A stretch of 64,000 nt of DNA from Thioalkalivibrio sp. ALE31. GTDB taxonomy: Bacteria; Pseudomonadota; Gammaproteobacteria; Ectothiorhodospirales; Ectothiorhodospiraceae. This document shows positions 2,383 to 6,041 of the stretch, in pieces. The notes beneath the pieces are model-generated. The model worked only from the letters and a program-made list of their open reading frames with translations. It ran no database searches and was not told the DNA's origin. The stretch spans positions 148,038 to 212,037 of the forward strand of contig NZ_KB905021.1 in NCBI RefSeq assembly GCF_000377405.1, given 5' to 3'. Positions within the stretch are counted from its first letter, which is position 1. The number at the start of each line of letters is the position of its first letter. The position numbers and the translations under genes are program-made.

Positions 2383-3015
2383 ATGTTCCGAACCACGCTC
2401 TGGCTGGCCTTGTCGCTGGCTGTCCTTCTCGCCCCGGCGCTTGCGAGTGCCGACGTCTACCGCTGGACCGACGATCAGGGCAATGTCCATTTTGGTGACC
2501 GTCCGCCCGAGGGGCGCGCCAGCGAGCCCGTGGACGTGCGCGAGCCCATGCGCGCGGTCCCGCTGGAAGGCGCGCGGGAGATTCTCGAACGGCCCGTGCG
2601 GCCCCGCGGTCAGCCGGAGGCGGAGGGTGTGTACACGCGGGTCGCAATTGCCCGTCCGGAGGACGGTTCGGGGGTGCGCGCGAACGACGGCAATGTGAGC
2701 GCCGAGCTGGATCTCGAGCCAGCGCTGGATGCCGACGCGGGCCATCGCGTGATCTGGGTGCTGAACGGCGCGGAGGCGGGCGAGGGTCAGTCGCCCACGG
2801 CGACCTTCGAGGGGCTCAACCGCGGCGAGCATACGCTGCAGGCCCGGATCGTGGACGCATCCGGCGAGGAGCTGGGGGCGAGCGCGACCATCGAGTTCAA
2901 CGTGCTGCGGATGGCCATTCCGCGCGAGCAGCAACAGCAGCAGCGGCCGCAGCAATTCCCGCCCGGGGGTGCGCCGCAGGCGCCCAGGGCCCCGCAGGCA
3001 CCCAGGGCGCCCTAG
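2383..3015 (+). CDS. DUF4124 domain secreted protein
   Basis: A 210-residue exported protein. The signal peptide (about residues 1-22, ending ALASA) is followed at once by DVYRWTDDQGNVHFGDRPPEG, the hallmark of the DUF4124 domain. Residues 100-190 look like a beta-sandwich (RVIWVLNGAEAG... GEHTLQARIVDASGEELG... ATIEFNVLR), probably Fn3/Ig-like. The C-terminus is low complexity, with a run of glutamines and PQAPRAP repeats. The start at 2383 has a strong ribosome binding site (aaggagga) eight bases upstream, so the ORF extension upstream is rejected. The TAG stop touches the terminal repeat of the element beginning at 3015. Function is unknown; probably envelope-located. Confidence 0.75.
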   Translation: MFRTTLWLALSLAVLLAPALASADVYRWTDDQGNVHFGDRPPEGRASEPVDVREPMRAVPLEGAREILERPVRPRGQPEAEGVYTRVAIARPEDGSGVRANDGNVSAELDLEPALDADAGHRVIWVLNGAEAGEGQSPTATFEGLNRGEHTLQARIVDASGEELGASATIEFNVLRMAIPREQQQQQRPQQFPPGGAPQAPRAPQAPRAP

Positions 3016-3296
3016 GGAGACGCTGATTGAATCGCACGTCCGCGTTGGTGCCCCCTGTTTTCCGAGACAAGGCGCGTCGTGCAGCGGGTAGTGGTTCTAC
3101 CCGCAAGCGGCGCAACGCAGGATCGGGGAACAGGGGGCACCAACCCCGCAAGCTATTGAAAGAAGGGGCTCGGCCGCTTTTGCGGGGGAGCGGCGTTGCG
3201 GTTCCCTTGTGCAGAGTGACTGCACGGCAGTCACCGCGCCTTGTTCGCACGCAAAAGCGACTCGAGCGCGAACGCGCGATTCAATCAGCGTCTCCC
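3015..3296 (+). repeat. MITE-like element with terminal and nested inverted repeats
   Basis: A 282-bp non-coding element. Its outermost 21 bp (3015-3035) recur exactly as the reverse complement at 3276-3296, and similarity continues to about 30 bp with two mismatches. A second perfect 15-bp inverted repeat (TTGGTGCCCCCTGTT at 3045-3059, complement at 3129-3143) and a third hairpin (GTGACTGC at 3216-3223, complement at 3227-3234) are nested inside. There is no ORF of note. The last base of the DUF4124 stop codon is the first base of the element, so insertion may have fixed that gene's end. No clear target-site duplication is visible. Family unknown to me. Confidence 0.75.
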
Positions 3297-3336
3297 TGGC
3301 CGGTGACGCCGGCTCCGAATTGACAACTTCGATCTC

Positions 3337-3353
3337 TGCACTTCAATAGTGCA
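3337..3353 (+). promoter_or_regulatory. NtrC-type binding box 1 (upstream of ntrB)
   Basis: TGCACTTCAATAGTGCA is a perfect TGCAC-N7-GTGCA dyad, the NtrC (GlnG) enhancer consensus. It is centred 163 bp before the ntrB start and is the strongest of three boxes whose centres are exactly 22 bp apart (3345, 3367, 3389). It suggests autoregulation of ntrBC. Confidence 0.75.
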
Positions 3354-3358
3354 CACAA

Positions 3359-3375
3359 CGCCCCATGATGGTGCT
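3359..3375 (+). promoter_or_regulatory. NtrC-type binding box 2
   Basis: CGCCCCATGATGGTGCT has a good right half (GGTGC) and a degraded left half. It is centred 22 bp, two helical turns, downstream of box 1. It is also the mirror image of box 3, so boxes 2 and 3 together form an inverted repeat across 3357-3399. Confidence 0.55.
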
Positions 3376-3380
3376 ATGAT

Positions 3381-3397
3381 TGCACCATAATGGGGCG
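3381..3397 (+). promoter_or_regulatory. NtrC-type binding box 3
   Basis: TGCACCATAATGGGGCG has a perfect left half (TGCACCA) and a weaker right half. It is centred 22 bp after box 2 and 119 bp before the ntrB start at 3508. The same-face phasing of all three supports cooperative binding of NtrC. Confidence 0.55.
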
Positions 3398-3507
3398 TTT
3401 TGGGTTCTGGGGGTTGGCGATTCGGCTGCGTTTTGTGACCGTGCCCCCGGCTTCGGCGCCCCGCCTGGCGATTCCTGCTTGGCGCGATTCCTGCTTGAGG
3501 CCTCTTG

Positions 3508-4605
3508 ATGACCACGCCCGCTTCCAATTCCGGCCCGGCCACCCCGCCCTGGTGGGACGACCTCTCCACGGCCGTGCTGGTGACCGATGCCGAGCTTTGC
3601 CTGCTGAGCATGAACAGCGCCGCCGAGGTGCTGCTCGGTCTCAGTCGCGAACGCATCGTCGGGCATGGTCTGGGCCAGTGGCTCAAGCTGGACCGGAATC
3701 TGTCCAGCCGCCTGCGCTCGGCGCTGACGCTGGATCAGCCGATCACCCTGCGCGCGCGCCAGATGGAGCCGCTGCGGGCCGAAAGTTTCCTCGCCGACGT
3801 GGTCATCACCCCGCTCCGTGGCGAGGGCGACAAGCCGGGGCAGTTGCTGTTCGAGCTGAATGCGATCGATCGCCACGAGCGCATCAGCCGCGAGGAGCAG
3901 TTACAGAAGCAGCAGGCGATCACCCGCGCGGTGACCCGGGGGCTGGCCCACGAGATCAAGAACCCGCTAGGGGGGCTGCGGGGGGCGGCGCAGTTGCTTG
4001 CCAGCGAACTGGACGACTCGGGCCTGAAGGAATACACCCAGATCATCATTCGCGAGGCCGACCGGCTGCGCAGCCTGGTCGATCGAATGCTGGGGCCGAA
4101 CAACCTGCCGCGGCGCGAGCCCGTCAACCTGCACGAGGTGCTGGAGCACGTGCGGGGCCTGGTCAGTGTGCAGCTGCCGCTGGGGCTGAAGATCCGCGGC
4201 GACTATGACCCCAGCATCCCGGACGTGCAGGCCGATCGCGACATGCTGGTGCAGGCGATCCTGAATCTGGTGCAGAACGCGGTGCATGCGCTGGAGGACG
4301 GGGGCGAGATCACCCTGAGCTCGCGCATCCTGCGCCAGTACACCATCTCCGGCCATCGCCACCGCCTGGTCGCCAAGCTGAGCGTGCGCGACAACGGGCC
4401 CGGTATCCCGGAGGAGATCCGCGAACGCATCTTCTTCCCCATGGTGACCGGCCGCGCCGCCGGGACCGGGCTCGGGTTGCCCATTGCCCAGAGCCTGATC
4501 CAGCTGCACGACGGTCTGATCGAATGCCATTCGCGCCCGGGGGCGACCACGTTCGACATCCTGCTGCCCCTTGAACCCCCGAAGGCCCGGGAGGCCAGGA
4601 AGTGA
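3508..4605 (+). CDS. glnL: Nitrogen regulation sensor histidine kinase NtrB
   Basis: NtrB (GlnL), the cytoplasmic bifunctional kinase/phosphatase that sets NtrC phosphorylation in response to PII. The 365 residues hold an N-terminal PAS domain (about 15-120), the H-box RGLAHEIKNPLGGLRGAAQLL (His near residue 148), the N box LNLVQNAVHAL, the G1 box DNGPGIPEEI and the G2 box GTGLGLPIAQSL. There are no membrane segments, as expected. The ATG at 3508 is preferred over the TTG one codon earlier. The stop overlaps the ntrC start (TGATG). Three phased NtrC boxes lie 110-170 bp upstream, so the pair is probably autoregulated. Confidence 0.95.
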   Translation: MTTPASNSGPATPPWWDDLSTAVLVTDAELCLLSMNSAAEVLLGLSRERIVGHGLGQWLKLDRNLSSRLRSALTLDQPITLRARQMEPLRAESFLADVVITPLRGEGDKPGQLLFELNAIDRHERISREEQLQKQQAITRAVTRGLAHEIKNPLGGLRGAAQLLASELDDSGLKEYTQIIIREADRLRSLVDRMLGPNNLPRREPVNLHEVLEHVRGLVSVQLPLGLKIRGDYDPSIPDVQADRDMLVQAILNLVQNAVHALEDGGEITLSSRILRQYTISGHRHRLVAKLSVRDNGPGIPEEIRERIFFPMVTGRAAGTGLGLPIAQSLIQLHDGLIECHSRPGATTFDILLPLEPPKAREARK

Positions 4606-6041
4606 TGGAGCCCACTGTCTGGATCATTGACGACGACGACTCGATTCGCTGGGTGCTGGAGCGCGCCCTCCAGCGTCACGCGATCGCGGTGCGCGGCTTC
4701 GAGACCGCGGACGCCGCCTGGGCGGCGCTCGACCGGGACCCGGTGCCGGACACCATCGTCGCCGATATCCGCATGCCGGGACTGAATGGCCTGGACTTCC
4801 TCGCGCGCATGCAGACGCGCCCGGATCCGCCGCCGGTGATCATCATGACGGCCTTCTCCGATCTGGAGAGCGCCGTGGGCGCCTACCAGACCGGGGCCTT
4901 CGAATACCTGCCCAAGCCGTTCGATGTGGACGAGGCCGTGGCGCTGGTGCAGCGGGCACTGGAGGCGCGGCGCGCCGGGCAGGACAATGGCACCGCTGGC
5001 CCCGAGATCGAGGAAACCCCGATCATCGGCGAGGCCCCGGCGATGCAGGAGATGTTCCGCGCCATCGGCCGCCTGTCGCGCAGCAACATCACCGTGCTGA
5101 TCAACGGGGAGTCTGGCACCGGCAAGGAACTGGTCGCCCGTGCCCTGCACCAGCACAGCCCGCGCGCCGATCAGCCGCTGATTGCCCTGAATACCGCGGC
5201 CATCCCCAAGGATTTGCTGGAGAGTGAACTGTTCGGCCACGAACGTGGTGCGTTTACCGGCGCCAACCAGAGCCGCAAGGGCCGTTTCGAACAGGCCGAT
5301 GGTGGCACGTTGTTTCTCGACGAGATCGGCGACATGCCGTTCGACCTGCAGACCCGGCTGCTGCGCGTGCTGTCCGATGGCACCTTCTACCGCGTGGGTG
5401 GCCATACGCCGATCCGGGTGGACGTGCGCATCATCGCCGCGACCCACCAGGATCTGGAGGAACGCGTGCGCGCGGGGCTGTTCCGCGAGGATCTGTTCCA
5501 CCGTCTGAACGTGATCCGGATCCATGTGCCGTCCCTGCGCGAGCGCCCGGAGGACATCCCGCTGCTGGTGCAGCATTTCATGGCCGAGGTGGCGCAGGAA
5601 CTGGGGGTCGAAGCCAAGACTATGCGCCCCGAGGTGGTGGCGGAGCTGCAGCGCCTGCCCTGGCCGGGCAACGTGCGTCAGCTGGAGAACACCTGCCGCT
5701 GGCTGACCGTGATGGCGTCGGGCCGCGAGGTCCACCTGGACGACCTCCCGGCCGAGCTGCACCAGCCCGCCGAGCCCCGGACCGAGCCGGACGGCGGCCC
5801 GGCCGGCGTGGTTGCCGGCCCGCGGGACTGGACGGCCGAACTGGCCCAGGTGGCCCGCCAGCACTGGCAGCGTGGAGACCAGGACCTGCTGGGTTCGGTG
5901 CTGCCGCAACTGGAGCGCACGGTCATCCGCGAGGCCCTGAACGCCACCGGCGGCCACCGCCAGCAGGCGGCCGCCCTGCTCGGCTGGGGGCGCAACACCC
6001 TCACCCGCAAGATCCACGAACTCGGCCTCGACGACGACTAG
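4605..6041 (+). CDS. glnG: Nitrogen regulation response regulator NtrC
   Basis: A sigma-54-dependent activator of 478 residues. The receiver domain (residues 1-120) has the acidic pocket IDDDDS and phosphoacceptor Asp in VADIRMPG near residue 53. The AAA+ domain follows, with Walker A GESGTGKE, the sigma-54 contact loop GAFTGA and Walker [12 protein letters not shown]. The C-terminal Fis-type helix-turn-helix reads [20 protein letters not shown]. It is translationally coupled to ntrB, whose stop overlaps its ATG at 4605. The linker between the AAA+ and Fis domains is rich in Pro, Gly and acidic residues. It should activate nitrogen-assimilation promoters and its own operon. Confidence 0.96.

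Follow-up and report, generated by a model that had tools for sequence, protein, structure and literature searches.

The window that we analysed, 64,000 nucleotides of the genome of Thioalkalivibrio sp. ALE31, contains the genes ntrB and ntrC. The former (glnL; positions 3508 to 4605, plus strand) encodes the sensor kinase NR(II) and matches NF008293 with 336 bits against a cut-off of 240. The latter (glnG; 4605 to 6041, plus strand), whose start overlaps the ntrB stop by one base, encodes NR(I) and matches TIGR01818 with 718 bits against a cut-off of 558.6. The start of ntrB is secure to within the adjacent upstream TTG, since the reading frame is closed by a TGA 9 nt ahead of the ATG and the first 60 nt contain no alternative ATG or GTG; third codon positions vary most over ntrB codons 1 to 20 (16, versus 9 and 9). 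The encoded NtrC has the sigma-54 interaction domain and the GAFTGA motif, and its recognition helix can be aligned to the one in the solved DNA-binding domain of enterobacterial NtrC. The genome has one copy of rpoN, and its single glnA is on another contig, in agreement with the initial annotation, which had described ntrBC as lying without glnA beside it. The closest named relatives are Thioalkalivibrio, the nearest being AKL19 (96% in NtrB).

A gene encoding a DUF4124 protein lies upstream of the NtrC-box array described below. At its 3' end sits a MITE-like element of 284 bp (3014 to 3297) with 31-bp terminal inverted repeats, which provides the stop codon of that gene and has about 40 copies in the genome at 77–100% identity; relatives are without the element at this place.

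NtrC boxes upstream of ntrB

Three putative NtrC boxes, none of them assigned to a strand, lie upstream of ntrB. Box 1 (3337 to 3353, TGCACTTCAATAGTGCA) is a perfect TGCAC-N7-GTGCA dyad, and boxes 2 (3359 to 3375, GCCCC-N5-GGTGC, with the core GCCCCATGATGGTGC at 3360 to 3374) and 3 (3381 to 3397, GCACC-N5-GGGGC, with the core GCACCATAATGGGGC at 3382 to 3396) each have one canonical half and match 9 of the 10 core positions. The box centres at 3345, 3367 and 3389 follow each other in steps of 22 bp. The letters and positions of the three dyads had been read correctly in the initial annotation, including the perfection of box 1.

The genome-wide search for boxes consisted of pattern searches; in the window and at the ntrB loci compared, boxes were scored by simple consensus against GCACC-N5-GGTGC and accepted if at least 8 of the 10 positions agree. 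A single loose box is uninformative, since the genome has 92 copies of the dyad GCAC-N7-GTGC and 39 of its control. The exact pattern TGCAC-N7-GTGCA is found once in the window (box 1) and twice in the genome, versus once for a reversed-pattern control. A triple of boxes (at least 8/10 each) spaced by 22 bp occurs exactly once in the window and in none of 200 dinucleotide shuffles, which bears out the earlier judgement that the even spacing is unlikely by chance; equally spaced triples with any step from 18 to 39 occurred once in the 200 shuffles. The paired motif GCNCC-N5-GGTGC-N7-GCACC-N5-GGNGC, with at most one mismatch, has two occurrences in all 2.77 Mb of the genome, one at ntrB and one at glnA, and its reversed control has none. 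Dyads of the form TGCACY-N5-RGTGCA are present above chance ahead of this nitrogen gene, and by its sequence the array at 3337 to 3397 would be an NtrC enhancer, for which occupancy by NtrC is predicted.

Conservation of the boxes and their spacing in close relatives, on which the initial annotation had staked its reading, was found: in 10 Thioalkalivibrio relatives the boxes again number three, with the same 22-bp step, and their distances to the ntrB ATG (about -170, -148 and -126) match those of all three boxes in the window, with a box at the aligned position of box 1. Locus L005 has two fully canonical boxes, likewise 22 bp apart and placed farther upstream, in a deeper group (L013, L015 and L016) two canonical boxes are spaced by 32 bp, the box spacing in L017 and L018 is 30 bp, and Ectothiorhodospira species mostly have a single strong box. 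Distant relatives usually have 1 or 2 canonical boxes, often 30–32 bp apart, and the strict 22-bp triple is restricted to close Thioalkalivibrio. Because distant relatives keep boxes in other numbers and at other spacings, NtrC boxes before ntrB are old and the 22-bp triple is local. A box scoring at least 8 of 10 is found upstream of ntrB in 73 of the 81 loci compared, versus 21 expected, where related ntrB loci are counted singly, here and below, so that the counts are not independent events.

An inverted repeat and a candidate sigma-70 promoter within the array

Boxes 2 and 3 together constitute a 37-bp inverted repeat in which the spacer bases pair as well. The full repeat, not assigned to a strand, extends from 3354 to 3402, with arms at 3354 to 3377 and 3379 to 3402 that are 88% complementary, and would form a strong hairpin if present as RNA (fold z of -6.0 for 3354 to 3402). 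The boxes had been described as having one good half each and as mirroring each other; both points hold, and the mirroring arises because the two boxes are arms of one inverted repeat. The outer half-sites are now GCCCC and GGGGC, that is, weaker NtrC half-sites and a stronger stem. The palindrome of boxes 2 and 3, spacer included, is perfect or near-perfect in the window and in L001, L003, L006, L008, L010 and L023, with sequences that differ by genome. Pairing between the arms is 8.75 of 10 within genomes versus 6.77 between genomes (reached in 0 of 20000 permutations), a contrast that is inflated by relatedness. Either selection for a hairpin or correction of the palindrome during replication could give such a kept palindrome. 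An Rfam search for structured RNA gave no match even at E 1.

Two candidate -10 elements of a sigma-70 promoter, here called P1, can be read from the sequence on the plus strand between 3375 and 3391, namely TATGAT in the linker between boxes (3375 to 3380) and CATAAT inside box 3 (3386 to 3391). No convincing -35 element was found for P1 and a strict sigma-70 scan gave no full promoter, so that P1 is suggested rather than shown. Across the loci compared, 24 of 56 have a -10-like hexamer no more than 30 nt from the box start, versus 4.8 expected when the box halves are held fixed, and CTATAATG is found at the centre of many NtrC boxes; putative NtrC boxes tend to overlap sigma-70-like -10 elements.

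A predicted sigma-54 promoter at the ntrB start codon

A sigma-54 promoter, P2, is predicted on the plus strand at 3480 to 3495 (TGGCGCGATTCCTGCT), with the -24 GG at 3481–3482, the -12 GC at 3493–3494 and a transcription start at about 3506. Its GG-N10-GC lies within TGGCACG-N4-TTGCW, which is kept in relatives, and rpoN is present in the genome. The -12 C (3494) is 13 nt before the ntrB ATG (3508), and since +1 counted from this C falls on 3506, the predicted leader of the ntrBC message would be about 2 nt long, leaving it practically leaderless. Sigma-54 start sites can shift by a few nucleotides, so leaders of 0–4 nt are all possible.

P2 is the most conserved intergenic stretch, with 3 of 15 columns variable among eleven Thioalkalivibrio, compared to 13–15 of 15 in the stretches upstream. 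A sigma-54 -12 C located 11–15 nt ahead of an in-frame start is found in 54 of the 81 ntrB loci (mode 13) versus 0.41 expected from shuffles, and also in 14 of 30 further genera of the class, drawn separately, versus 0.075 expected; this short spacing is absent from 27 of the 81 loci and from 16 of the further genera. The start codon is ATG in all 54 short-spacing loci, and the -24 element of ntrB is often weak outside Thioalkalivibrio (TGGTTT, not TGGCAC). The predicted position of P2 near the start codon recurs across many Gammaproteobacteria and is a wide-ranging feature, in contrast to the local 22-bp triple.

Several further sites were noted in the course of these comparisons. In the ntrB loci of Halomonas/Modicisalibacter (L065, L067, L071), a stronger sigma-54 site, TGGCGCGCTTCTTGCA, lies 25–26 nt before the ATG and corresponds to a short leader. 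The window contains a direct repeat, GCGATTCCTGCTTG, at 3468–3481 and 3484–3497, of which the second copy forms the -12 half of P2 and the first, upstream, is without a correctly spaced GG. Another sigma-54 match, TGGTGCTATGATTGCA at 3369–3384 (score 13), was rejected as a by-product of the boxes, because it coincides with box halves and their linker and because several relatives (L007, L008 and L023) do not keep it as a sigma-54 site.

The Shine-Dalgarno sequences of short-spacing ntrB loci have a median strength of -3.4 kcal/mol and reach -6 or lower in 6% of loci, versus 45% of control long ORFs; this weakness has a confounder in the -12 element, which takes up the same place. In the window, GAGG is found 8 nt before the ntrB ATG; in Ectothiorhodospira, AGAAGG-type sites overlap the -12 element, and the short-spacing loci L032, L036, L052 and L058 have no usable Shine-Dalgarno. 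As a control, full-length glnA was analysed in 17 genomes that are mostly the same as in the ntrB set. The nearest sigma-54 site lies 60–130 nt before the ATG in 16 of them and 200 nt or more before it in the remaining one, and the glnA Shine-Dalgarno is strong (median -9.3 kcal/mol). The glnA control region of the genome under study (L126, 964 to 1112) has three NtrC boxes, two of which are 22 bp apart, and a sigma-54 site, TGGCATGATGCCTGCA, separated from the ATG by 82 nt with AAGGAG.

Proposed control of ntrBC and alternative readings

NtrC autoregulation of ntrBC, as proposed in the initial annotation, is well supported by the curated ntrB and ntrC assignments, the conserved boxes, the matching recognition helix and the paired motif at glnA. 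That first reading was incomplete in that it missed P2 about 90 bp downstream, the -10-like elements in and between the boxes, and the inverted repeat. Phosphorylated NtrC (NtrC~P) binds dyads of this kind, forms oligomers and, by looping, activates the sigma-54 polymerase, and sigma-70 promoters that are covered by NtrC (glnAp1, glnL) are repressed. We consider it likely that ntrBC has a dual promoter similar to glnAp1/glnAp2, in which the boxes lie over a weak sigma-70 promoter P1 and serve as enhancer for the near-leaderless sigma-54 promoter P2. P1, located inside the array, would be the basal source of ntrBC mRNA, whose leader would then measure about 120 nt. During nitrogen shortage, NtrC~P would occupy the array and block P1, and from box centres at about -117, -139 and -161 relative to the predicted start, which are in the usual enhancer range, it would act as enhancer and make P2 active. 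Transcription beginning some 2 nt ahead of the ntrB ATG would then produce ntrBC mRNA with practically no leader. Sequence statistics establish the boxes and their conservation, the sigma-54 site and the constancy of its distance to the ATG. NtrC occupancy, P1 activity and its repression, P2 activation and leaderless translation at ntrBC are what we infer from the sequence, with the leaderless step predicted solely from the position of the promoter.

The proposed arrangement resembles E. coli glnAp1/glnAp2 in that NtrC boxes precede a sigma-54 promoter, a sigma-70 promoter (here a candidate) is associated with them, and the distances from boxes to start are similar. In E. coli glnA, the NtrC boxes are at -108 and -140 and overlap with glnAp1. 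In contrast, the array described here would drive ntrBC rather than glnA, its boxes are 22 bp apart, and its sigma-54 site abuts the start codon; that of E. coli glnA lies 84 nt before the start, with a good Shine-Dalgarno. According to the available part of PMC9150766, NtrBC is needed for full activity of the ntrBC promoter in P. aeruginosa, which is a precedent for positive autoregulation; promoter architecture and leader length are not described in that part. Leaderless mRNAs that start at or next to the start codon are known from dRNA-seq in Sinorhizobium and Leptospira (PMC3616915, PMC5243855), and the available parts of these papers report neither ntrBC nor a conserved sigma-54 cause of leaderlessness.

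The boxes could alternatively function in repression only, as an operator of the E. coli glnL type over a sigma-70 promoter, in which case NtrC would reduce expression of ntrBC, with no use made of the sigma-54-like site. E. coli ntrBC also receives transcripts from glnA, and its glnL operator-promoter is similar to the present locus in having one NtrC box (TGCACTAAAATGGTGCA, 9/10) just before ntrB with an adjoining -10-like TATAAT; unlike Thioalkalivibrio it has a good Shine-Dalgarno and neither a sigma-54 site nor the short spacing. Loci L059, L060, L072 and L077, which are without P2, have one canonical box within about 60–70 nt of the gene, and in Caulobacter NtrC acts negatively on its own operon (PMC10274813). 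Against such a reading, no other intergenic stretch is as conserved as the sigma-54 site, and the distance from that site to the ATG is held far above chance; we regard the reading as improbable. Slightly less improbable, if still unlikely, is that P2 works but leadered RNA dominates, either because sigma-54 transcription really begins farther upstream or because the P1 transcript with its GAGG gives nearly all NtrB. The Thioalkalivibrio GAGG, 8 nt ahead of the start codon, and the Ectothiorhodospira sites overlapping the -12 element are consistent with this, while the many short-spacing loci with no usable Shine-Dalgarno, L032, L036, L052 and L058 among them, and the maintenance of 11–15 nt between the -12 element and the ATG in unrelated genera argue against it.

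A third reading takes boxes 2 and 3 mainly as the intrinsic terminator of the DUF4124 gene directly upstream, with the likeness to NtrC boxes being secondary. The hairpin is strong, its arms co-vary between genomes, and the window, L001, L006 and L010 have a short T-tract just after it. We nevertheless hold this to be very unlikely: a terminator scan found none (the G+C-rich stem is present but the T-run too short), the tails of L002, L005, L007, L008, L012 and L023 have no T-run, canonical boxes occupy that place in L005, L013, L015 and L016, and the paired motif also occurs at glnA. The repeat may have a double role as NtrC sites and terminator; termination is possible in the genomes with a T-tract but would not be a general property.

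NtrC autoregulation is textbook knowledge, with glnA as its route in E. coli. In the genome studied here glnA is located on a different contig, and ntrBC has an NtrC-box array and a predicted sigma-54 promoter to itself. We found no description of a sigma-54 promoter with leaderless ntrB in the open-access literature, and because the search covered that literature only, the arrangement is one not found described rather than one proved new. For annotation, it is a caution that the sigma-54 site reaches to the ntrB start codon. More generally, we tentatively suggest, as a possibility that falls short of probable, that across many Gammaproteobacteria the fixed distance between P2 and the ATG lets nitrogen change both the amount and the type of ntrBC mRNA, from a leadered sigma-70 transcript with a Shine-Dalgarno when nitrogen is plentiful to a leaderless sigma-54 transcript when it is scarce. 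If the leaderless arrangement is true, a central regulator would be made from a leaderless message exactly under starvation, which would link sigma-54 control to the mode of translation.
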